From: Gemmatimonadota bacterium
GTDB lineage: Bacteria; Gemmatimonadota; Gemmatimonadetes; Gemmatimonadales; Gemmatimonadaceae
Direction of reading: 5' to 3'
Length of the DNA stretch: 64,000 nt
Assembly: GCA_016871895.1 (NCBI GenBank)
Contig: VHBO01000001.1
Location: 62,001-126,000, forward strand
The position numbers were made by a program, and so were the translations under genes. Below the pieces are notes generated by a model. The model did not search any database. It saw nothing but the letters and a program-made list of their open reading frames with translations, and was not told the origin of the DNA. Below, piece after piece: positions 20,182-63,521 of this stretch (the stretch's first letter is position 1; the number at the start of each line of letters is the position of its first letter).

Positions 20182-21228
20182 ATGCGACTCCACTGGCCGC
20201 TCGCCCTCGTCGTCCTCGTCCCGCTGGCTGGCGCCGCGGGGTGGCTCCTCGCCTGGCCGATCCAGCGGCTCTTGACCCGGATCGTCCGCGGTGCCGATGT
20301 CGGGCTCGACGACCTCTTGGTGGCAGCCGCCAAGCGTCCCCTCGCGCTCCTCCTCGCCGCCGGCGTCTCGCGCGCCGCGCTCGAGTGGATCCGCACCGAG
20401 AAGGCCATCCAGCGCGTCGCCGTCGACGTCCAGGGGGCGGCGGCGATCGTCGCGCTCTTCTGGTTCCTCTGGCGTGCGATCGGGGTGGCGCGAACAGCGC
20501 TCCCGGCGAGTGGGTGGGCGGCGCAGCGGCCGGCCTTCCGCTCCCTGATCCCGCTCGCCGCGCGGCTCGGCCGGATCCTCGTCCTCGTCACCGGTGTGCT
20601 CGCGGTGCTCGCGAGCTTCGGCTACGAGGTCGCCACGCTCCTCGCCGGCCTGGGCATCGGTGGGATCGCGATCGCCTTCGCGGCGCAGAAGACGCTCGAG
20701 CACTTCTTCGGTTCGGTCGCGATCGGGATCGACCAGCCCTTCCGCGTCGGCGATACCATCGTCGTCGACGGGATCGAGGGGGAGGTGGAGGCGATTGGGC
20801 TCCGGTCCACGCGTCTCCGCACCGCCGATCGGACCGTCGTGAGCCTGCCGAACGGGCGGCTCGCCGATATGCGCACCGAGAACCTCGGGCCTCGTGACCG
20901 ATTCCGCTTCCGGACCCGCTTCGGGCTCGCGCACGGGACCCCGGCGGCGACGGTCACGCGCGTCCGCGACGCCGTCGAGGCGCGTCTGCGCGCCGAGCCG
21001 CTTGTCTGGGCTGACCTCGTCAGCGTCCGGGTCGTCGCGCTGGCGGAGGCATCGATCGACCTTGAGGTGGTCTGCTGGGTTCGCACCACGGACAACGAGG
21101 TCTTCAAGCGGGTGCGCGAGGGGTTGCTGCTCGGGATCCTCCGGTGCGTCGAGGGGGCGGGGTCGACCCTTGCCTTCCCGCGGCAGAGCGTCGCCCTCCA
21201 CCGGATCGACGACGGCGGCGCCCCCTGA
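20182..21228 (+). CDS. MscS family mechanosensitive channel
   Basis: A 348-residue membrane protein that would open under membrane tension to release solutes on osmotic downshock. Hydrophobic helices lie near residues 4-24, 80-105 and 120-140, followed by the pore-lining TM3 rich in Gly and Ala ([29 protein letters not shown]) and the MscS beta domain ([43 protein letters not shown]). The C-terminal alpha/beta domain is complete. It is transcribed divergently from the acyl-CoA dehydrogenase; 94 bases separate the two starts. Confidence 0.92.
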
Positions 21229-21322
21229 TCGGGCGGGGGCGTCGGGGTCGGCGCCGTCGCTGTCGACGGACCCCTGAACGGGATGTGACCCGCCGGGCCG
21301 GTGGGCGAGTCTCCTTCATCGG

Positions 21323-21868
21323 ATGACGGCGCGCTCCGACGGCACTCTCGTGCAGGCGGTCCTAGCCGGCGACGGCGACGCCTTCGCCGCGTTGGTGCGT
21401 CGCCATCAGGCACCGATGTTCCGCTATGCGGTCCGGATGTGTGGGGACCGCGACGATGCCGATGATGTGGTGCAGTCGGCGTTCGTGCGGGCGTATCGGA
21501 ATCTCGCGCAGTGTCGGGAGATGGAGCGGTTCGCATCGTGGCTGCGGCAGATCGTGATGAACGAGTGCCGGACTTTGCTGGCGACCCGCAACCGCCGGAG
21601 TCGGTGGTTCGTGGCGGACGAGGCGGTGCTGGCGGCGACGCTGGCGCCCGCCGAGTCGACCGAGGGGACGGAGCTCGGACGGATCGAGCGCGCGTTAGGG
21701 ACGTTGACCCCTGACCTGCGCGAGGCCTTCCTCCTGAAACATCTGGAGGAGCTGAGCTATGAGGAGATGGCGGAACTCACGGGGGCCGGGGTGTCGGCGC
21801 TCAAGATGCGGGTGAAGCGGGCCTGCGAGCAGCTGCGGGAGCGGCTAGAGGGGAGGGGAGATGACTGA
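21323..21868 (+). CDS. ECF-type RNA polymerase sigma factor
   Basis: A 181-residue sigma factor with region 2 (DAFAALVRRHQAPMFRYAVRMCGDRDDADDVVQSAFVRAYRNL) and region 4 (LTPDLREAFLLKHLEELSYEEMAELTGAGVSALKMRVKRACEQL). In region 4 the usual PxGTVKS is VSALKMR. It is the first of five genes read in one direction and overlaps the next gene by 8 bases, so the next product is the expected regulatory partner. It probably controls this envelope operon, including itself; no promoter motif could be confirmed by eye. Confidence 0.93.
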   Translation: MTARSDGTLVQAVLAGDGDAFAALVRRHQAPMFRYAVRMCGDRDDADDVVQSAFVRAYRNLAQCREMERFASWLRQIVMNECRTLLATRNRRSRWFVADEAVLAATLAPAESTEGTELGRIERALGTLTPDLREAFLLKHLEELSYEEMAELTGAGVSALKMRVKRACEQLRERLEGRGDD

Positions 21869-22421
21869 TCCGATCGAACAGGACGACGCGCGGTTCGGGG
21901 CGCGGCTCGGCGCGACGCTCCGAGCCGCGGAGCCGTTGCCCCCGGGCGCGGAGGCACGTTTGCTCGCCACGCTCGCGGCCACGCCGCGCCCGTCGCGCCC
22001 GCTTCCGTGGTGGCGTCGCCCGCGCACGCTGCGGCTCTCGCCGATCGGCGGCCTCGCGCTCGCCGCCGGCTTCGCCGGCCTGATGGTCCTCGGCACGCTC
22101 GGCGTCACGCGTGAGACGGCGCCCACGGTGGCTGCCGTCGCGCCGGACACCGTGCACCTCGTCCGATTCGTGCTCGTGAACCCCGGGGCGCGGCAGGTCT
22201 CGCTCGCCGGGGATTTTAACGGATGGCAGGCGGAGGCGCTGACCCCGGCCGCTTCCGGCGGAGTCTGGAGCGTCGCGCTCCCGCTCCGCGCCGGACGCTA
22301 CGAGTACGCGTTCGTCGTGGATGGCGAGCGCTGGATCGCCGACCCTGCGCTCCCGGCCGCGCGCGATGAGTTCGGGGGGGTGCATTCTGTGCTCCATCTC
22401 GGCGCCGATCGGGTGATGTGA
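21861..22421 (+). CDS. Membrane-anchored protein with glycogen-binding (CBM48/E-set) domain, putative anti-sigma factor
   Basis: A 186-residue protein with a cytosolic arm of about 60 residues, one transmembrane helix (about 61-82) and a periplasmic C-terminal domain. That domain (98-182) reads like a CBM48/AMPK-beta type glycogen-binding module: VRFVLVNPGARQVSLAGDFNGWQ with the DFNGW core at 118-122, then GVWSVALPLRAGRYEYAFVVDGERWIADP. Position directly after an ECF sigma gene, with an 8-base overlap, is where anti-sigma genes sit, and the cytosolic arm starting with short acidic helices fits. The reading is that the periplasmic module senses something and the arm holds sigma; this is inference. 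Confidence 0.75.
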   Translation: MTDPIEQDDARFGARLGATLRAAEPLPPGAEARLLATLAATPRPSRPLPWWRRPRTLRLSPIGGLALAAGFAGLMVLGTLGVTRETAPTVAAVAPDTVHLVRFVLVNPGARQVSLAGDFNGWQAEALTPAASGGVWSVALPLRAGRYEYAFVVDGERWIADPALPAARDEFGGVHSVLHLGADRVM

Positions 22422-22504
22422 CGCGCACGTCGCATCCCGGAGTCTTACTTTCAGAACGTCGGCCTTCCTCGCGCCGGCGTCATCACCACCAGCTGGAGCT
22501 GACG

Positions 22505-23071
22505 ATGTTCCGAACCCGTGCCCTCCCCGCCCTCGCGGCGGCCCTCCTGCTGGGTGCCTGCGATATGCTCCCCACGGGGAACGACCAGGTCGCCCTCGCC
22601 GATGACTATGCGCTCGTGATGTTCGGCGAGCCGGGGGCGTCCCTCGAGGGGACCCTCGGTCCGCAGGCCTCGCATCACGCGACCGATGGCCGTTCGGGCC
22701 GCGCGCCGCTCCCCGACTCGCTCGCGCTGACCCAGGCGCAGAAGGATTCCATCGACGCGCTGAAGGCGGCGTTCGCGGCGGCGAACGCCGAGCCGCTCGC
22801 GCAGCTGAAGGCGATCTTCGATGAGGCAAAGGCGGCCCGTCAGGCGGGGAAGACCCGCGATGAGGTGCACGCGATCCTGCAGCAGGCGCGCCCGATCCGC
22901 GACGCGCTCAAGCCCGCCGTTGAGGCGCTGCACACCGCGATCCGCGCGGTCTTCACGCCGGCGCAGCGCGCGTGGCTCGAGGCCAATCGTCCGCCGATGC
23001 CGGGTGGGCTCGGGCCGATCGGTCGTCACGGCCGTCGTCCGCCGCCGCCCCCGCCGGGCGGGAACGGCTGA
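22505..23071 (+). CDS. Spy/CpxP-like (LTxxQ) lipoprotein
   Basis: A 188-residue predicted lipoprotein: MFRTRALPALAAALLLGAC gives a clean lipobox (LGAC) with the lipidated Cys at 19. The mature part is helical and has two LTxxQ-type motifs typical of the Spy/CpxP/CnrX fold: LALTQAQKDSIDALK and VFTPAQRAWLEANR. Such proteins act as periplasmic chaperones or metal/misfolding sensors linked to envelope stress regulators. The end is a Gly/Pro/Arg-rich tail with six consecutive prolines. It lies third in the sigma operon, matching the trio order seen again at 62171-63521. Confidence 0.75.
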   Translation: MFRTRALPALAAALLLGACDMLPTGNDQVALADDYALVMFGEPGASLEGTLGPQASHHATDGRSGRAPLPDSLALTQAQKDSIDALKAAFAAANAEPLAQLKAIFDEAKAARQAGKTRDEVHAILQQARPIRDALKPAVEALHTAIRAVFTPAQRAWLEANRPPMPGGLGPIGRHGRRPPPPPPGGNG

Positions 23072-23104
23072 GTCGTCTGGACGTCCACTGACGGGATCTC
23101 GCTG

Positions 23105-23875
23105 ATGCGTTCCCTCTCTCACATCTGCCTCGTGGTCCTCGGCGTGCTCGTCCTCTCGGGGACGCGCGCCGTGGCCCAGGGGCCCGGGCGCGACCCGGTG
23201 GCGCGGCTCCGTGAGGTGTTGCCCGCCGATGTCGCCGAGCGGGTGATCGCTACGGTGACCGCGGCGCGCGAGCGTGGGTTACCGTCGCAGGCACTCGAGA
23301 ACCGTGCGCTCAAGTACGCGGCGCGCGGCGTCGCTCCGGAGCAGATCGAACGTTCGGTGGCGGAGCACGCCACGCGGATGGACCGTGCGCAGACGGCACT
23401 CGCTGGCGCGCGCGGTGGGATGCGCCCGGCCGGCGACGAGGTCGATGCCGCCGCCGAGGCAATGCGGATGGGCGTCGACGGCGCGGGGGTGAGTGCGCTG
23501 GCGAAGTCCGCGCCGTCGGGACGTTCGCTCGCGGTCCCGCTCTTCGTCGTCGGGAGTCTCGTCGATCGTGGGCTGCCGTCGGACGAGGCGATCGCCCGCG
23601 TGCGAGACCGCCTGCAGACGCGGGCAACCGATGCCGAGCTCGAGCGGTTGCCGGACGCGGACGGCCCGGGTGGTCCGCGTGGTCCCCGTGGTCCCCGTGA
23701 TGGGATGCGGCCGGGCGGAGAGCGAGGTGGAATTCGAGATGGGGCACGTCCCGGAATGCGTCCCGGTGGTCCGGGGCAGGGGATGCCCGGCGTCCGCGGT
23801 CCCGGGGTCCCGCAGAACGGTGGCCCGTCCACCGCGCCTCGACCGGGTGGTGGACCGCCGCGGCGGCGTCCCTAA
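23105..23875 (+). CDS. Secreted protein with collagen-like Gly/Pro/Arg-rich tail
   Basis: A 256-residue exported protein with signal peptide MRSLSHICLVVLGVLVLSGTRAVAQ. The first 160 mature residues are helical and polar (ARLREVLPADVAERVIATVTAARERGLP, IERSVAEHATRM) with no recognised family. The last 70 residues are low-complexity, with runs of GPRGP and RPGG triplets that resemble collagen-type Gly-X-Y repeats but are irregular. It lies 33 bases after the Spy-like gene and 12 bases before the next, so it belongs to the sigma operon. Confidence 0.65.
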   Translation: MRSLSHICLVVLGVLVLSGTRAVAQGPGRDPVARLREVLPADVAERVIATVTAARERGLPSQALENRALKYAARGVAPEQIERSVAEHATRMDRAQTALAGARGGMRPAGDEVDAAAEAMRMGVDGAGVSALAKSAPSGRSLAVPLFVVGSLVDRGLPSDEAIARVRDRLQTRATDAELERLPDADGPGGPRGPRGPRDGMRPGGERGGIRDGARPGMRPGGPGQGMPGVRGPGVPQNGGPSTAPRPGGGPPRRRP

Positions 23876-23887
23876 GCCAGCGCGTTG

Positions 23888-25096
23888 ATGTCGCATCGCC
23901 CGCGGGCGAGCGGAGGGATCACCGGGTGGGCGCTCAGGCGCCTGCCCGGTTTCGTCTTGCTGTGGATGGCGGTCCACCCTGCCGCGCTCGATGCCCAATG
24001 GCTGCAGTCGAGCGTCGGGCTCGGCGCCGCGAGTGTCCGCTACGCGGAGACGCTCGAGACCACGATGGTGAGCCTCACTCCGACGGTCTCGTGGCTCGGC
24101 ACACGCGGTGTCGTCACCGCGACCGGGGTCTTCGCCAGCGCGTCGCTGCAGGGGGTGTTGGCCGCCGCGCTCACGACGTCGTTCGATGCCCCGCTCGCCG
24201 CGGACCTCACGCTACTCACCGGCGGGAGCCGCACGGATGACGCCGTCACCCGCCAATCGCGCGTGACCGGCCGTGTGCACCTGCGGGCCACGCGTGTCGG
24301 CCTCTGGCTCGGCACCGGCGTCGGTCGCGTTACCGATGGCAGCAGTACGAGCGCCACACGTGTGCACGACCTCGGGGCGTGGGTCGACCTCGGCGGGCTC
24401 GGTGTGACCCTCACGCGATTGCCGACGACCGCAGGGGACACCGTCCGCTTCACCGACACCGAGCTCGGCGTCCGGTGGAACTGGGATCGGCTCACCCTCG
24501 ATGCGACCTCCGGGTGGCGCACCGGCACCGCGCGCGTCTCGGGAATCGACGACCCGGGTCGCTGGCGCAACGTGACCGGTACGTTGCGGCTCTCCGGTCG
24601 CGTCGCCGTCGTGGCGGGCGCGGGGTCGTATCCGCTCGACTTGCTGCAGGGATACCCGGCCGGGCGCTTCACAACGGTGAGCCTGCGGTTCACGCCGGCA
24701 TCGGCGCCGCGCGTGGTGGGGCAGGCCGATTTGCCGGGGGAGGTGGCTCGTGACACCGCTCGTGACACCGCTCGTGACACCGCTCGTGACACCGCTCCGG
24801 AATCGAGCGGGCTCTCGACGCTCATCGTGCAGACGCTTGACGACGATCGGCGTCGGCTCCGCGTGCGGGCGCTCGGCGCGACGACCATCGAGCTGCAGGG
24901 GTCGATGACGGCGTGGGCGCCCGTCTCGTTCGTGGCCGAGGGCGACGGCTGGTTCGCGGTGGAGCTGGCGATCCCGGTCGGCACGCACGAACTCGTGCTC
25001 CGGCGCGACGGCGGACGATGGGTGGTGCCGCCGGGGCTCGCGGTGCGGGTGGATGAGTTCGGGGGGGAGACGGGGGTGGTGGTGGTAAGTAGGTGA
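23888..25096 (+). CDS. Outer-membrane beta-barrel-like protein with C-terminal glycogen-binding-type domain
   Basis: A 402-residue exported protein. After the signal peptide (FVLLWMAVHPAALDAQ) come alternating amphipathic strands (LQSSVGLGAASVRYAE, GVVTATGVFASASLQ, RVHLRATRVGLWLGTG, TLRLSGRVAVVAGAG), as in small outer-membrane barrels. A linker holds four copies of RDTA. The last 85 residues (IELQGSMTAWAPVSF, GWFAVELAIPVGTHELVLRRDGGRW, then VRVDEFGG) follow the same plan as the CBM48-type domain of 21861-22421, which ends with ARDEFGGVHSVLHL. The two proteins of one operon thus carry matching modules, one on the inner and one likely on the outer membrane. The preceding TTG at 23885 is an alternative start. 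Confidence 0.7.
   Translation: MSHRPRASGGITGWALRRLPGFVLLWMAVHPAALDAQWLQSSVGLGAASVRYAETLETTMVSLTPTVSWLGTRGVVTATGVFASASLQGVLAAALTTSFDAPLAADLTLLTGGSRTDDAVTRQSRVTGRVHLRATRVGLWLGTGVGRVTDGSSTSATRVHDLGAWVDLGGLGVTLTRLPTTAGDTVRFTDTELGVRWNWDRLTLDATSGWRTGTARVSGIDDPGRWRNVTGTLRLSGRVAVVAGAGSYPLDLLQGYPAGRFTTVSLRFTPASAPRVVGQADLPGEVARDTARDTARDTARDTAPESSGLSTLIVQTLDDDRRRLRVRALGATTIELQGSMTAWAPVSFVAEGDGWFAVELAIPVGTHELVLRRDGGRWVVPPGLAVRVDEFGGETGVVVVSR
24746..24793 (+). repeat. Four 12-base tandem repeats inside a coding region
   Basis: Four identical copies of GCTCGTGACACC encode ARDT four times in the linker between the barrel and the C-terminal domain of the outer-membrane protein. Whole-codon unit length keeps the frame open if copy number changes. 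Confidence 0.9.
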
Positions 25097-57981: not shown

Positions 57982-59202
57982 CTACTCGTACCGCAGGGCG
58001 ACGATCGGGTCGAGGCCGGCCGCCCGACGGGCGGGGTAGACGCCGAAGAGGATCCCGACGAGGGCCGAGAAGCCGAAAGCGAGGGTGACCGAGGAGGCGC
58101 CGATCTGGGTCTTCCAGCCGAGGAGCGAGGTGAAGGCCGTGGCCCCGCCGGCGCCGAGCGCGATGCCGATGCCGCCGCCCAGGAGGCAGAGGACGACGGC
58201 CTCGATGAGGAACTGGAAGAGGATGTTGGCCTTGGTGGCGCCGAGCGCCTTCCGGATCCCGATCTCGCGCGTGCGCTCGGTCACGGACACCAGCATGATG
58301 TTCATGATGCCGATCCCGCCGACGAGGAGTGAGACGGCGGCGATCCCGGCGAGGAGCATCGAGAAGACCTGCGTGGTCTCTCCGAGCGTGCTCAGGAAGT
58401 CCGCCTGGTTCCGGATCTGGAAGTCGTCCGGCTTGTCGGCGCGGAGCTTGTGCTCGCGGCGGAGCACTTTCTGCACGTCGGCCATCGCCTCGGGGATCTG
58501 CTTCTCATCCGGCGCGAGGACCGAGATGGAGCGGAGCCGGTTGGAGCCGAGCACGCGGAAGCGCGCGGTCTGGATGGGGATGAGGACCTGGTCGTCGGGG
58601 TTGCTGAACGGGTTCGCCTGACCCTTCGACTTGTAGACGCCGATGACGGTGAACTGGATGCCGCGGATGCGGATGTCCTCGCCGACGAGCGCCTCGGGGG
58701 TCTGCAACCCGAGGTTCTCGAGGACGGTCGGACCGACGACGGCGAGGCGTTGCCGGCTCTGGTCCTCGGCCTGCGTGAAGAAGCGCCCGGCGGCCAGCTC
58801 GTACTTGCGGACCTCGGGGAAGTTCGCCGTGGTCCCGACGACCTGCGTGCCCGCGTTCTTGTTGAGGTACTGCACCTGCAGGTTGCTCGACATCTCGGGC
58901 TGCACCGCCGTGATGACCTCGGCGCGATCCTCGAGTGCCTGCGCATCCTCGAGGAGGAGGCGCGAGCGCACGTCGAACGACATCACGCCGCCTGAGCGCG
59001 CCTGGCCCGGGGAGACGGTGAGGAGCGTCGTCCCGAGCGAGGAGATGCGGTCGTTGACCGCCTGCTGGGCGCCCTTGCCGAGTGCGACCACCGCGATGAC
59101 CGCCGACACCCCGATCACGATGCCGAGCATCGTGAGGAGGGAGCGAAGCTTGTTTGCGCGGAGCGCCCCGAGGGCGACGCGGATCGTCTCGCCGAAGTCC
59201 AT
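57982..59202 (-). CDS. ABC transporter permease, MacB/FtsX type
   Basis: A 406-residue protein of the MacB permease type: an N-terminal helix with RANKLRSLLTMLGIVIGVSAVIAVVALGKGAQQAV, a periplasmic MacB_PCD domain of about 220 residues, and three C-terminal helices with the FtsX block (VSLLVGGIGIMNIMLVSVTERTREIGIRKALGA). MacB itself is fused to an ATPase; this protein is not, and no ATPase gene lies nearby, so its motor must come from elsewhere. It is the last gene of the sigma-efflux operon, 3 bases after the adaptor gene. Confidence 0.93.
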   Translation of the reverse strand: MDFGETIRVALGALRANKLRSLLTMLGIVIGVSAVIAVVALGKGAQQAVNDRISSLGTTLLTVSPGQARSGGVMSFDVRSRLLLEDAQALEDRAEVITAVQPEMSSNLQVQYLNKNAGTQVVGTTANFPEVRKYELAAGRFFTQAEDQSRQRLAVVGPTVLENLGLQTPEALVGEDIRIRGIQFTVIGVYKSKGQANPFSNPDDQVLIPIQTARFRVLGSNRLRSISVLAPDEKQIPEAMADVQKVLRREHKLRADKPDDFQIRNQADFLSTLGETTQVFSMLLAGIAAVSLLVGGIGIMNIMLVSVTERTREIGIRKALGATKANILFQFLIEAVVLCLLGGGIGIALGAGGATAFTSLLGWKTQIGASSVTLAFGFSALVGILFGVYPARRAAGLDPIVALRYE

Positions 59203-59205
59203 GGC

Positions 59206-60873
59206 TCAGCGCGCCCCGCCACCACCACCACCACCGCCGCCGGCGCCACCGGGCCGGCCACCGCCCCCCGCACCGCCGGCGGCCCCACCGCCTGTTCCGC
59301 CGCCGAGCGGGCTGCCGCCGCCGGTCATCGCGCGGAAGCGGTCGTTGCTCTGCTCCCGCTGGGCCTGGAGGAGCGCCGCGCTCAGCAGCGCGACCTTCTC
59401 GCCGGGCTGGAGGCCGCTGACGACCTCGGTGTAGTCGTAGTCGGAGACACCGAGCCGGACGACGCGCGGCTCCCAGGTGGAGTCGGCCTTCTGGACGAAG
59501 ACGAGGCCGCTGCGTGTCGCCGAGCGCCGGGCACCGGAGGGAGCACCCGCGCCGCTTCCGGCGCCGCCGGCGCCCATCCCGCCGGCGCCACCCATCCGGC
59601 TGCGGCCGTTGCCACCCTGCGCCGTCGCGGCGCCGGTCTCGGTGCCACGACCATTCCCTCGCCGACGCTGCGACGCGCCGCCGGCGCTATCCGGTCGGCT
59701 CCGAGCGCCGCCACCGCTCGCCTGCGGCCCGGCCGCCTGCGGCGCGGCACCAGCCGGCGCGACACCAGCCGGCGCACCCGCGCCCCCGCCATTCGGACCG
59801 CGACCACCCCCTGCGCCACCGCCGAACCCACTGCCCATTCCGCCACCCATCCCGCCGCCCATCCCGGCGCGGAGCTGGGCCTGCACGCTGTCGGGGTTCA
59901 GGCCGAGCGCGCCCGCAGCCTGCGCCGCCTCACGCACCGACCGCACCGCGTCGTTGGAGACGGCGATCACCTCGTCCCGCCGCTCGGAGACGATCGACAC
60001 CTCGCCGTTCATCCCCGGCATCAGGAGCCCTTCCTGATTGTCGAGCGTCACCAGCACGGGGAACATCGTGACGTTCTGCTGTACGATCGCCTGCGGCTCG
60101 ATCTTCTCCACCGTGCCGCGGAAGGGGCGGTCGGGGAAGGCGTCGACGATGACTGTCGCCTCGAGGCCGGCGCGCACCGAGCCGATGTCGGTCTCGTTCA
60201 CGAGCGCGCGGGCGCGCACGCGTGTGAGGTCGGCCATCTTCACGATCGTCGTGCCGCCACCGACGGCGCTGGTCCCCGACTGGATGACCTGGCCGAGCGC
60301 GACGGGCTTCTCGATGATCGTCCCGGTGACGGGCGCGGTCACCCGCGCGTCGTCGAGCCGCTGCTGCGCGAGGTCGAGCGAGGCGCGGGCACGGACGATG
60401 GCGGACTGCGCATTCGCATAGTCGAGCTGCGCGGCTTCGTTCTCCTGCGCCGTGATGATGCGCGCGGCGAGCAGTTCATCCGACCGCTTCTTCTGGATCG
60501 CCGAGACCTCGAGCTTCTTCTCCGCCGCCTCGAGGTCGGCCTTGGCCTGGTTGAACTGGTTCTGCACGTCGCGCGTGTCGAGCTGCACGATGAGGTCACC
60601 GGGCCGCACGAGGGTGCCGGTCTCGACCGGCATCTGCGTGACCTGCCCCGAGGCGCGGGACTTCACCTCGACGACGTTGATCGGCTCGATCACGCCGGTG
60701 GCCTCGGCCTGCACCACGATGGTGCGGCGCGCCACGTCAGCGGTCCGGATGGTGAGTGGTTCGGTCTTGTCCTTCCCGCACGCGGCGAGGGCGAGGACGG
60801 CGAGCAGGGCGAGGGCGGGACGACGGATCACGGAGACGGCTCCGGAAGAGGCGGATGCGGAGAGGGCGGGCAT
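59206..60873 (-). CDS. Efflux adaptor (MacA/HlyD-like membrane fusion protein) with Gly-rich inserts
   Basis: A 555-residue predicted lipoprotein (LALAACGKDKTEP) that bridges the inner-membrane permease and the TolC channel. The lipoyl and coiled-coil parts are intact (VEVKSRASGQVTQMPVETGTLVRPGDLIVQLDTRDVQNQFNQAKADLEAAEKKLE, then IEKPVALGQVIQSG). Between the beta-barrel domain and the final MP domain lies an insert of about 140 residues, almost all Gly, Ala, Arg and Ser (GMGGGMGGGMGSGFGG and more), and the protein ends in another Gly run. The inserts are absent from typical MacA proteins. It is 5 bases after TolC. Confidence 0.92.
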   Translation of the reverse strand: MPALSASASSGAVSVIRRPALALLAVLALAACGKDKTEPLTIRTADVARRTIVVQAEATGVIEPINVVEVKSRASGQVTQMPVETGTLVRPGDLIVQLDTRDVQNQFNQAKADLEAAEKKLEVSAIQKKRSDELLAARIITAQENEAAQLDYANAQSAIVRARASLDLAQQRLDDARVTAPVTGTIIEKPVALGQVIQSGTSAVGGGTTIVKMADLTRVRARALVNETDIGSVRAGLEATVIVDAFPDRPFRGTVEKIEPQAIVQQNVTMFPVLVTLDNQEGLLMPGMNGEVSIVSERRDEVIAVSNDAVRSVREAAQAAGALGLNPDSVQAQLRAGMGGGMGGGMGSGFGGGAGGGRGPNGGGAGAPAGVAPAGAAPQAAGPQASGGGARSRPDSAGGASQRRRGNGRGTETGAATAQGGNGRSRMGGAGGMGAGGAGSGAGAPSGARRSATRSGLVFVQKADSTWEPRVVRLGVSDYDYTEVVSGLQPGEKVALLSAALLQAQREQSNDRFRAMTGGGSPLGGGTGGGAAGGAGGGGRPGGAGGGGGGGGGAR

Positions 60874-60878
60874 AACGG

Positions 60879-62171
60879 TCAGAGGGCGCGCCCGAGGAGC
60901 GCTTCGATCTGCGCCTTGGCGACCCGCGCGTCGAGGCGGGCCTGGATCAGGGCCTGACGCGCGGCGATGAGGGTGGACTGTGAGGCGATCAGGTCGAGCA
61001 GGGTGCCGGCGCCGAGGTTGTAGCGCTCCTGCTGCACCCGGAGGTCCTCCTCGCCCGCGAGGACCGACTGCCGCTGGATCTCGACGCGCGCCTCCGCGGT
61101 CCGGAGCGTGCCGAGTTGCTGCACCATCAGCTGGCGGGCGTTGAGGCGGGCGTCGCGGAGGTTCGCCGTGGCGTTCTGTTCGGCGATGCTCGCCTGCACC
61201 ACCTGCTGCTCGCGCTGGAGCCCATTGAACAGGGTGTAGTTCACCCGGAGGCTCGTCGCGAGGTTCTTGTTGCGGGTGTCCCCGAGCACCGCGAACCCCG
61301 CCTCAGAGGCGGCGTAGCTCTGGGAGAGGCCGACCGAGAGGGTCGGGAGATACGGCGTCTTCGCCGAGCGGGATTGCTGGCGCGCGGCCGCGACGGCCGC
61401 CTCGGCCTGCCGCACCGCCGGCCCCTGCTCGGCGATCGCGATCAATTCGGCGTCGGCAAGCGATACGCGCGCGGCATCCCCGGTGTCGCTCGGCATCGCG
61501 GTGACGAGTGCCGTCGATCCGACGAGGCGGGAGAGCGCGGCGTTCGCGGTCGCGAGCGCGTTGTCCGCGGAGAGGACGGCGAGCTTCGCGTTCCCGACCG
61601 CGATGATCGAGCGGAGCGAGTCGGAGCGTGTCGCCGCGCCCGCCGCGACGCGGGCGTTCGCGGCCTTGAGCTGCTCGGTCGTCTGCTCCAGCTGCTTCTC
61701 GGCGGCGCCCTGCTGCTCACGGGCGGCGAGGACGGCGAAGTACTGCTGTTTCACGCCGAGGGCGATGCTGAAGCGCTGCGCGACCTCGCTCGCCTCAGCG
61801 GCGTCGACGTTGGCGCGGGCCGCCATCACGTCGAAGTAGCGGCGGCCGCCGTCGAAGAGCTCGATGTTCGAGCTGAGGCTGTGGCTCGCGCGCCACGGCA
61901 CGTCGTTTGGGAGGATCGTGTCGAGGTCGAGGAGGTAGCGCGTGCCGTTCTGCCGGTTGGCGCCTGCGCCGAGGGAGAGGGTCGGGAGATACGCGGCGTA
62001 GCGCGTCCGCGTGACCGCGGCCTGGCTGCGGACGGCGTTGCGTGCCTGCACCGCGGCCGGCGCGTTGCGCTGGGCGAGGCGCACGGCCTCGTCGAGCGTG
62101 ATCGGGCGTGCTGGGTCCTGCGCGCCGAGGGCGATCGGGACCGCCGCCACCATCCACATCCACTGCCGCAT
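60879..62171 (-). CDS. TolC family outer-membrane efflux protein
   Basis: A 430-residue outer-membrane channel subunit: signal peptide MWMVAAVPIALGAQ, then two repeated halves of long helices (LDEAVRLAQRNAPAAVQARNAVRSQAAVTRTRYAAYLPTLSLGAGA and LADAELIAIAEQGPAVRQAEAAVAAARQQ) and a C-terminal GTLLDLIASQSTLIAARQALIQARLDARVAKAQIEALLG. These are the OEP repeats of TolC. The start was set at MRQWMWM because the ATG shares a base with the stop of the Spy-like gene upstream. Confidence 0.92.
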   Translation of the reverse strand: MRQWMWMVAAVPIALGAQDPARPITLDEAVRLAQRNAPAAVQARNAVRSQAAVTRTRYAAYLPTLSLGAGANRQNGTRYLLDLDTILPNDVPWRASHSLSSNIELFDGGRRYFDVMAARANVDAAEASEVAQRFSIALGVKQQYFAVLAAREQQGAAEKQLEQTTEQLKAANARVAAGAATRSDSLRSIIAVGNAKLAVLSADNALATANAALSRLVGSTALVTAMPSDTGDAARVSLADAELIAIAEQGPAVRQAEAAVAAARQQSRSAKTPYLPTLSVGLSQSYAASEAGFAVLGDTRNKNLATSLRVNYTLFNGLQREQQVVQASIAEQNATANLRDARLNARQLMVQQLGTLRTAEARVEIQRQSVLAGEEDLRVQQERYNLGAGTLLDLIASQSTLIAARQALIQARLDARVAKAQIEALLGRAL

Positions 62172-62545
62172 CACTCGCGCTCCTGACGTCGTCCGGCCTC
62201 GCGGTCGCGACGCCACTGTTCATACTTGGTCCGCTGCTCGGGGGTGAGCAGGCGGTCGAAGGCCTCACGCGCCTCGCGGCTGACAGAATCGATGCCGGGA
62301 CGCACCGGGGCCATCAGGGAATCCATCCGGCGGTTGCGGGTGTCGAGGATCGAATCGAGTACGGCGCGCTGCGTCGAGTCGAAGGCCAGCGTCTCGGCGA
62401 TCCGCCCCCGCATCGCGCGCGGGTCACGCATCTCGCGGGTCCAGCTGTCCCGGAGGACCCACCGGTCCACCGTCACGCCGATGGCCGCCCCGACGAGGAC
62501 CGCCGTCAGATAGAACGCCGCCGCGAGGCTTTTGGTTCGGGTCAT
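62171..62545 (-). CDS. Membrane-anchored Spy/CnrX-like periplasmic sensor
   Basis: A 124-residue protein with one N-terminal membrane helix (SLAAAFYLTAVLVGAAIGVTV) and a helical periplasmic domain with the Spy/CpxP signature FDSTQRAVLDSILDTRNRRMDSLM and LLTPEQRTKYEQWRRDREA. Anchored proteins of this fold next to an ECF sigma and its anti-sigma are the metal sensor CnrX/NccX type. No His-rich metal site is obvious here, so the stimulus is unknown. It overlaps the anti-sigma gene by 4 bases and TolC by 1. Confidence 0.75.
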   Translation of the reverse strand: MTRTKSLAAAFYLTAVLVGAAIGVTVDRWVLRDSWTREMRDPRAMRGRIAETLAFDSTQRAVLDSILDTRNRRMDSLMAPVRPGIDSVSREAREAFDRLLTPEQRTKYEQWRRDREAGRRQERE

Positions 62546-62931
62546 CGGCGGTCCTCCGGGGTCGTGGCAGGGCCGGCGCGCAGCGGGTCGGGACGCTCGC
62601 CGTCGAAGAGCCCGCGGCGGGCGAAGACGGGGGCGTCATCGGCGCTGTCGAGGATCGTCTCGTAGGCCATCCGCGTCTCGAGCGCGCGGTGCCGGAGATA
62701 GACGGATCCCGCGACGATCAGGGTGAGGCCGGCGGCGAGGAGTCCGATGCGGTAGATGCGCTCGGGGAGCACCCACCACGCGGCGCCGTCGCGTCCCTGC
62801 CGGACCCGCGCGAGGATGCGGGTCTCGAGGCCGGCCCAGTAGGCCGGGTCGGTCGGCGGGGCGACGAGCGCGCGGAGGCGCGTCGTGAGCTCGTCGTCGC
62901 GATGGAGGGTGGGACGGTCGTGGTCGGTCAT
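62542..62931 (-). CDS. Membrane-anchored anti-sigma factor-like protein
   Basis: A 129-residue protein with a cytosolic N-terminal arm (DDELTTRLRALVAPPTDPAYWAGLETRILARV), one membrane helix (IGLLAAGLTLIVAGSVYLRHRA) and a short periplasmic tail. Its 4-base overlap with the ECF sigma gene and this layout fit an anti-sigma factor, though it has no zinc motif and no strong family match. It corresponds in position to CnrY in CnrYXH-type systems. Confidence 0.75.
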   Translation of the reverse strand: MTDHDRPTLHRDDELTTRLRALVAPPTDPAYWAGLETRILARVRQGRDGAAWWVLPERIYRIGLLAAGLTLIVAGSVYLRHRALETRMAYETILDSADDAPVFARRGLFDGERPDPLRAGPATTPEDRR

Positions 62932-63521
62932 CGGTCGCTCCGGAGGTCGTGCAGCAGGTCGCGCAGCTGGGCGCGCGCGTAATGGAGGTCGGATCGGGCG
63001 GTCCCCTCGGGGATGCCGAGCATCCCGCCGATCTCCGCGTGTTTGTAGCCTTCGACGTCGTGTAGGGTGATGACGGCGCGCTGGCGCGCCGGCAGGCTCG
63101 CGAGCGCCGCAGCGAGGCGGCGTTGCAGCTCGTCCGTGACTGCGGGGTCGCGGAAGGGGGAGGCGACGGTCTCGGGGAGATCGTCGGCGTCGCGGACCTT
63201 CCGACGCCGCGTGAGGTCGAGCGCGGCGTTCGCAACGATACGGTGCAGCCACGCGCCGAATGCCTGATCGGGGAGGAATCGGTCGAGCGCGCGGAAGGCG
63301 TGCAGGAAGGCATCCTGCACGGCGTCCTCCGCGTCCTCGTGGTTGAGCACAATCGCACGCGCCACGACGTACGCCCGCCGCTGATGCCGGCGCACGAGCT
63401 CGCCGAACGCGGGCTCGTCGCCGCGCTGGGCGGCGAGGATCAGCGCGCGTTCGTCGGCGGGCCGATCACTCACCACGGGGCGCGTGGAGGCGACGGTCCA
63501 GGGCAGAGCGACGGTATTCAC
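62928..63521 (-). CDS. ECF-type RNA polymerase sigma factor
   Basis: A 197-residue sigma factor: region 2 from DEPAFGELVRRHQRRAYVVARAIVLNHEDAEDAVQDAFLHAFRAL, and region 4 from LASLPARQRAVITLHDVEGYKHAEIGGMLGIPEGTARSDLHYARAQL. The start is a GTG with TATGCT 12 bases upstream on the minus strand, a possible -10. It heads the six-gene operon down to the permease and probably drives it. Confidence 0.94.
   Translation of the reverse strand: MNTVALPWTVASTRPVVSDRPADERALILAAQRGDEPAFGELVRRHQRRAYVVARAIVLNHEDAEDAVQDAFLHAFRALDRFLPDQAFGAWLHRIVANAALDLTRRRKVRDADDLPETVASPFRDPAVTDELQRRLAAALASLPARQRAVITLHDVEGYKHAEIGGMLGIPEGTARSDLHYARAQLRDLLHDLRSDR

Follow-up and report, generated by a model that had tools for sequence, protein, structure and literature searches.

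A candidate trans-envelope ECF sigma factor cassette with two CBM48/AMPK-type modules in Gemmatimonadota

Comparison with known systems

In the FecI-FecR-FecA system, an outer-membrane barrel with a periplasmic signalling domain is combined with an inner-membrane anti-sigma factor that has a periplasmic domain of its own, and with a sigma factor of the extracytoplasmic function (ECF) type. Here we describe a locus of five genes (21323-25096, + strand) in a 64-kb stretch of the genome of a Gemmatimonadota bacterium (GenBank assembly GCA_016871895.1, contig VHBO01000001.1, positions 62,001 to 126,000), which we call the window and to which all positions refer. The locus encodes an ECF sigma factor, an anti-sigma-like membrane protein with a CBM48/AMPK-type module, a Spy-like lipoprotein, a secreted helical-repeat protein and a putative outer-membrane beta-barrel protein ending in a second module of the same fold. 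The predicted arrangement is like the Fec type in having a barrel with a periplasmic domain, an inner-membrane anti-sigma protein with a periplasmic domain and an ECF sigma factor. However, the Fec-type barrel is a TonB-dependent receptor with an N-terminal signalling domain, whereas no TonB-dependent receptor was seen in the cassette, the module of the putative barrel protein is C-terminal and of CBM48 type, and the anti-sigma-like protein bears a module of the same fold as that of the barrel protein.

A second comparison is with the dual membrane-spanning anti-sigma (Dma) factors, which are associated with ECF21 sigma factors and are reported only in Bacteroidota (PMC13088901). There, too, an anti-sigma domain, one transmembrane helix and an outer-membrane beta-barrel link the cytosol to the outer membrane, and the operon is small, with a sigma gene and genes of unknown function. 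In contrast to Dma, which in that account is one polypeptide with a disordered tether, the predicted inner- and outer-membrane parts of the cassette are separate proteins, each with a CBM48-type module; the 186-aa anti-sigma-like protein has no barrel, and the putative barrel is the product of a separate gene. By analogy, the cassette would work like split trans-envelope anti-sigma signalling of the FecIRA or Dma kind, while it lacks the defining features of both.

The cassette also resembles RpoE/RseA and the class I anti-sigma domain (ASDI) systems (PMC7406223) in its pairing of a sigma gene with the gene for a single-pass membrane anti-sigma-like protein and in its envelope location; unlike them, it has no Pfam anti-sigma domain detected on the cytosolic arm. 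That study reports that about 79% of Gemmatimonadetes ECFs are ASDI-linked, which is unusually often; nowhere does its main text use the words CBM, carbohydrate or glycogen. We found no description of CBM48-type anti-sigma factors in the open-licence full-text literature.

The sigma factor and the anti-sigma-like protein

A preliminary description of the region had placed the five genes in one operon headed by an ECF sigma factor. All five open reading frames were confirmed on the + strand, and the sigma gene (21323-21868; 181 aa) overlaps the gene for the anti-sigma-like protein (21861-22421; 186 aa). The genes lie in one operon, which has a second, internal promoter-like element, described below. 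The sigma protein is indeed of the ECF type, with regions 2 and 4 only (Pfam Sigma70_r2, PF04542, 1.8e-15, and r4_2, PF08281, 7.4e-14, both over cut-off), and it matches the NCBIfam sigma70-ECF model over cut-off.

The second protein had been described as a membrane protein with a cytosolic arm and a CBM48/E-set module, and this was confirmed. It has an arm of 61 residues (1-61), a single transmembrane helix (62-80) and a predicted periplasmic module at about residues 98-181 (22152-22403), which matches AMPK1_CBM (2e-12; 47.6 bits against a cut-off of 26.8) and CBM_48 (4.5e-9), both over the Pfam cut-off, and the CBM of AMPK beta-2 at 6.9e-8. The net charge before the transmembrane helix exceeds that after it in 108 of 115 homologues, a single-pass layout with the N-terminus inside. 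From this layout and the position of its gene we infer that the protein is anti-sigma-like and that its arm would bind the sigma factor. For two of 11 anti-sigma-CBM48 proteins there was also a match, at 5.4e-5 at best, to the type IX secretion plug model of NCBIfam, perhaps through an E-set domain common to both.

The putative barrel protein and its C-terminal module

The last gene (23888-25096, + strand) encodes 402 aa, with a putative barrel part at residues ~37-270, a linker with RDTA repeats and a module at residues 309-402 (24812-25096). By sequence this module is weak, with AMPK1_CBM matches of 2.7e-4 at best and 17.6-21.5 bits, below the cut-off of 26.8. It has nevertheless the fold of the AMPK-beta CBM: its best structural matches were to AMPK beta (VIA-align Z 12.3, root-mean-square deviation 1.4 over 81 residues), and a profile of 19 barrel homologues matched AMPK beta1 at 1.1e-9. 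The AlphaFold2 model, built from an alignment of only 4 sequences, gave the module a predicted local distance difference test score (pLDDT) of ~80. Thus, where the preliminary description had a barrel ending in a similar module, the module stands on structure and family profile, and the barrel remains a prediction.

An outer-membrane barrel is suggested by the strand pattern, a signal peptide (the N-terminus is hydrophobic in 61 of 79 barrel proteins) and the pattern of the last strand before the linker, which is conserved as G-R/K-Y/F ... G-L/I-R-L/F. No TonB-receptor Pfam match was found on the protein or in the 19-member set. Were the strand before the linker the final one of such a barrel, the linker and the module would, by comparison with known barrels, lie on the periplasmic side. 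The linker contains the product of a 12-base tandem repeat of about 4 copies (24747-24797, encoding the RDTA repeats), part of which is missing in the 88% relative (L005); linker length may vary quickly.

Comparison of the two modules

We compared 115 anti-sigma modules with 79 barrel modules at positions that matter in AMPK. In AMPK, as one study reports, W100, K126, W133, L146 and T148 contact carbohydrate, and the W100G/W133A double mutation abolishes the carbohydrate effects (PMC2642990). The tryptophan equivalent to W100 is present in 100% of both module types and that equivalent to W133 in 93% of anti-sigma and 96% of barrel modules. The lysine is not kept: the K126 position is mostly A, M or S in anti-sigma modules (A in 57%) and N in 59% of barrel modules. 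The L146 position is mostly F and the T148 position is variable; the contact set as a whole is not kept. At alignment position 68, which we take to be AMPK N150, a carbohydrate contact, Asn is found in 71% of anti-sigma modules and Val in 64% of barrel modules.

The modules are therefore like the AMPK beta glycogen-binding domain and CBM48 (PF16561, PF02922) in their fold and in the W100/W133-type tryptophans; they differ from these in that they are predicted to be extracytoplasmic, in being carried on an anti-sigma-like and a putative barrel protein, in the loss of K126, and in having no glycogen enzyme as partner. The source genome is a 96%-complete draft (2.28 Mb in 129 contigs), and absences from it are not absolute; within that limit its only AMPK1_CBM matches were the two modules, its one CBM_48 match was the anti-sigma-like protein itself, no CBM48 glycogen enzyme was found, and glycogen-synthase-type matches were marginal only (22.7 bits, at the cut-off). 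Glycogen is an unlikely ligand because this genome has no CBM48 glycogen enzyme. Sensing of glycogen in the manner of AMPK is unlikely, given the loss of K126 together with the lack of such an enzyme and of a clear glycogen synthase. Of the sensing device with glycogen-type modules proposed earlier, we retain a sigma-controlled envelope system with two similar modules, the outer-membrane one by prediction, and a gene order that relatives share (see below), but not the glycogen.

Another saccharide might still be involved. Both modules could bind the same glucan-like or envelope polysaccharide, which the barrel would capture or pass on and the anti-sigma module would read, without the modules ever touching each other. 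The near-invariant stacking tryptophans, the pair needed for the carbohydrate effects in AMPK, and the Asn of the anti-sigma modules at position 68 would fit such a direct sensor. The replaced lysine and the Val of most barrel modules at position 68 do not, nor does the genome, in which neither a further CBM48 protein nor a clear glycogen synthase was found; among the neighbouring genes of the loci read, we saw no recurrent glycoside hydrolase or transporter. We regard this reading as possible but doubtful.

Both modules had been noted to end in DEFGG. The similarity is real, but it reflects a D-x-F-G motif of the whole family, its D being present in 88% of the anti-sigma and 96% of the barrel modules, and modules of Nitrospirota and Myxococcota carry DGFG variants; the motif was thus discarded as a private link between the two proteins. 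A recent duplication or gene conversion between the modules of one operon was not supported, since their identity within the same locus (0.334) is about that between different loci (0.323) and below the values within each type (0.51 and 0.41). By this measure the two module types are old and distinct lineages.

Conservation of the cassette

Within the order, 233 of the 288 genomes searched gave a match to the anti-sigma-like protein (133 of 159 high-quality genomes; 66 of 79 genera). A search of a phylum-wide sample with a profile of 11 rows gave matches in 280 of the 395 genomes (200 of 286 high-quality genomes; 104 of 138 genera). We read 101 loci of the order, including the window, L005 and L006, and 20 of the class; the order loci (100 fetched) and the class loci were taken from the top of longer match lists, and therefore the counts lean to closer relatives. 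L114 and L115, the same loci as L005 and L006, were dropped before counting, except from the gene totals of the looser promoter pattern below. Genes of relatives were called with a simple caller of our own; 6 of the 101 order loci had no called anti-sigma gene and are outside the domain counts, and L020 was left out of one alignment (X in the protein). Neighbour counts refer to loci in which the sigma gene comes immediately before and 2.6 kb or more of downstream sequence is available (71 of the order, 15 of the class).

A gene for a barrel with module was found in 56/71 order loci and 9/15 class loci, the helical gene in 67/71 and 15/15, and both together in 52/71 and 9/15. The order of genes is sigma, anti-sigma, helical, barrel or sigma, anti-sigma, barrel, helical, with two helical genes at some loci, and the flanking genes vary between loci. 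The distance matrices of all cassette parts correlate at 0.62-0.86 (65 complete loci), which shows that it is passed on as a unit.

The core extends to other phyla. In the Bipolaricaulota loci read, the sigma, anti-sigma-CBM48 and helical genes are followed by a secreted protein (with DUF4384/PEGA/PKD in L009), and we saw no gene for a barrel with CBM. On a Myxococcales contig (L018), sigma and anti-sigma-CBM48 are followed by a CBM48-ended protein of 406 residues and the helical gene; in Desulforhabdus (L031) a CBM48 protein with a putative lipobox precedes sigma, anti-sigma-CBM48 and the helical gene; on three contigs of Nitrospirota, a small CBM48 protein comes after sigma and anti-sigma-CBM48. 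These stand-alone Nitrospirota proteins (L007, 6693-6962; L008, 6672-6956; L051, 6741-6956) are of 71-94 aa, and their reading frames as called lack a signal peptide. The four genes without the lipoprotein make up a cassette conserved across the order, of which the core of sigma, anti-sigma-CBM48 and helical genes recurs in Bipolaricaulota, Myxococcota and Desulfobacterota. The five-gene order of the preliminary description is not conserved as such: among the loci read, the window and its 88% relative (L005, the same locus as L114) are the sole ones in which the lipoprotein gene lies within the cassette, and this gene is lineage-specific. The lipoprotein itself (22505-23071, + strand; 188 aa) is Spy-like as first described, with an LTXXQ match of 5.8e-7, over the Pfam cut-off, and by eye a lipobox, LLLGAC.

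The fourth protein ('COL'; 23105-23875, + strand) had been called collagen-like. That identity was abandoned, as the longest G-X-Y run is 4 triplets and residues 30-180 form a confidently predicted helical repeat; in the AlphaFold2 model (mean pLDDT 74.8) this core is mostly above 90, followed from ~187 by a disordered Gly/Pro tail. The protein has no Pfam or NCBIfam family, and none was convincing among 12 diverse members either. Foldseek gave no match at E<=1e-3, and the best VIA-align match (Z 8.7), to a designed helical repeat, may reflect no more than an arrangement common among proteins; no natural relative by fold was convincing.

The distribution of this helical protein bears on another reading, in which the modules would serve as Ig-like structural spacers and would share their fold by coincidental reuse, while the signal would enter by way of the helical protein or when the anti-sigma protein is degraded by general proteolysis. 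It would fit that no partner is more constant than the helical protein, and that in Bipolaricaulota it accompanies the anti-sigma-CBM protein where no barrel-CBM gene was seen. Spacers would not account for tryptophans of the AMPK binding face that are near-invariant in both modules, nor for the second CBM48 proteins that Nitrospirota, Myxococcota and Desulfobacterota have beside such anti-sigma genes. We consider the spacer reading unlikely.

Promoter elements and predicted targets

Upstream of the sigma genes we found a two-box element consisting of TGTGAC, a spacer of ~17-18 and a box of (A/G)GTCT or GGTWAT-like sequence, which in many cases lies 8-12 nt from the start codon. Of 99 regions upstream of sigma (360 bp), 58 contain TGTGAC, against 34 of 481 control genes. 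The window has two copies of the ECF-type form TGTGAC-N18-AGTCT, both on the + strand. Promoter 1 (21284-21312) lies 10 nt ahead of the sigma start codon, which predicts a nearly leaderless sigma mRNA. Promoter 2 (22417-22445), whose first box (22417-22422) overlaps the anti-sigma stop codon, precedes the genes for the lipoprotein, the helical protein and the barrel; the 88% relative L005 has it in almost unchanged form. In L006, L116 and L117 the element also overlaps the end of the preceding gene. The pattern TGTGACN{17,19}RGTCT matched twice in the window, compared with a mean of 0.08 in shuffles, and these two operon sites are its only matches in the 2.28-Mb genome.

TGTGAC could also be read as a half-site of the CRP/FNR type and not as an ECF -35 box, TGTGA being a CRP half-site. 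The near-fixed spacing to the GTCT/GTWT box, often 8-12 nt from the sigma start codon, is not what this would lead one to expect, and the -10-like box resembles the -10 of E. coli sigmaE. We consider the CRP/FNR reading very unlikely. The ECF-type element points to autoregulation by the cassette's own sigma factor, whose regulon is probably very small. In 17 genomes of the genus, matches to the exact pattern numbered 0-7 per genome, some before cassette genes and some elsewhere; thus a few further targets are possible in relatives.

With a looser pattern applied to all loci, 42 matches lay before sigma genes, 7 before the helical gene, 1 before the lipoprotein gene, 1 before a barrel gene and 14 before other genes, while 24 were not near a start. 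The 14 other genes comprise 11 for DUF4382 lipoproteins and 3 of one further secreted beta-rich family, assigned by eye; DUF4382 was confirmed by Pfam for L146, L149, L118 and L141. There are 32 DUF4382-like genes in the loci, and they account for 19 of 102 genes directly upstream of sigma, 17 of these 19 being divergent. Pfam lists no known function for DUF4382. No DUF4382 gene was found in the draft genome of the window, so the lipoprotein slot varies. DUF4382 genes adjoin sigma in L146, L149, L141, L156-L158, L164, L225, L230, L231 and others, often divergently and with the same promoter element. Genes of the beta-rich family, divergent from the cassette and with the element, lie at 3562-5049 of L142 (no Pfam match), 7455-8948 of L145 and 3-848 of L183.

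Proposed mechanism

The established genes, domains and conservation, and the promoter element with its near-exclusive location, lead us to propose a self-contained, autoregulated trans-envelope ECF signalling cassette. The cytosolic arm of the anti-sigma-like protein would keep the sigma factor at the inner membrane and expose the CBM48/AMPK-type module in the periplasm. The anciently diverged second module would hang on a flexible linker from the periplasmic side of the outer-membrane barrel, and the secreted helical-repeat protein would be the third constant partner. The inner-membrane module would then read the state of the barrel and the helical protein, whether their presence, their assembly or a shared saccharide-like ligand. 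Upon a disturbance, the anti-sigma protein would free the sigma factor, probably by regulated proteolysis, and the freed sigma would act mainly on the two promoters of its own operon, so that the sensor and the outer-membrane and periplasmic parts are rebuilt in a homeostatic loop. That an envelope-sensing circuit is self-contained and autoregulated is supported by the position of the element, before sigma and before the lipoprotein-helical-barrel part here, and before sigma, helical and DUF4382 genes in relatives. Signalling by module-module contact or by a shared ligand, and the proteolytic release, are conjecture on our part; the scheme as a whole, with the reading by the module and the homeostatic loop, we hold to be rather probable.

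Several results count against the scheme. The barrel gene did not adjoin in 15/71 order and 6/15 class loci and so is not always linked; the most constant partner is the helical protein rather than the barrel. Nor is the barrel module singled out by partial correlations with the anti-sigma module, at 0.42 (given sigma) against 0.48 for the helical protein; besides, such mirror-tree correlation speaks of joint inheritance, not contact. The strand-rich N-terminal barrel part was modelled with low confidence (pLDDT ~30), the 19-homologue profile found no barrel structure in the PDB, and the 19 members matched no Pfam barrel family. As for the promoters, the 42 looser matches on the sigma side compare with 124 called sigma genes (L114 and L115 included), so that many copies have a variant of the element or none, and the reversed pattern had 1 chance match in the genome. 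A two-mismatch genome search for a wider regulon, its spacing set one base off so that the two known sites were unlisted, stayed at chance level (14 against 10 for the reversed control).

The arm raises a similar difficulty. It is short (~60 aa), no Pfam anti-sigma domain was found on it among the 11 diverse members scanned, apart from one weak RskA_C match (0.035), and while arm and transmembrane helix do align with an anti-sigma model of NCBIfam, NF052375, which 4 of 11 diverse homologues match, they do so weakly (3.9e-6, far below cut-off). The second protein might then be merely a co-transcribed envelope protein, with the sigma factor controlled otherwise. This would leave unexplained that its gene directly overlaps the sigma gene and is conserved together with it in several phyla, that the protein is single-pass with the N-terminus inside, as anti-sigma factors typically are, and a partial correlation between sigma and arm of 0.49, given the module (distance matrices of 65 full loci). 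We think it very unlikely that the protein is not an anti-sigma factor, and keep the autoregulated signalling cassette as our preferred interpretation.

The cassette looks like an undescribed way of monitoring the envelope. If the proposed scheme is true, a fold famous as part of a eukaryotic energy sensor serves as a part of bacterial envelope signalling, and two unnamed families (the helical protein and the barrel) as well as the DUF4382 lipoproteins gain a setting. It would also be a very small circuit with predicted promoters, open to reporter tests. The cassette occurs in many bacteria of soil and water, the anti-sigma-CBM48 protein is present in most sampled genomes of a common phylum, and the core reaches other phyla.

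Neighbouring genes in the window

Just 5' of the cassette, and outside its conserved part, lies a gene on the + strand (20182-21228) which by eye encodes an MscS-like channel; the same gene is found in the 88% relative. Near the end of the window there is another, unrelated ECF operon (62171-63521, - strand) with a sigma factor, a small single-transmembrane protein and a Spy-like small protein. Next in this operon come genes (60879-62171, 59206-60831 and 57982-59202) that resemble, by eye, an export set of the TolC/MacA/MacB type.

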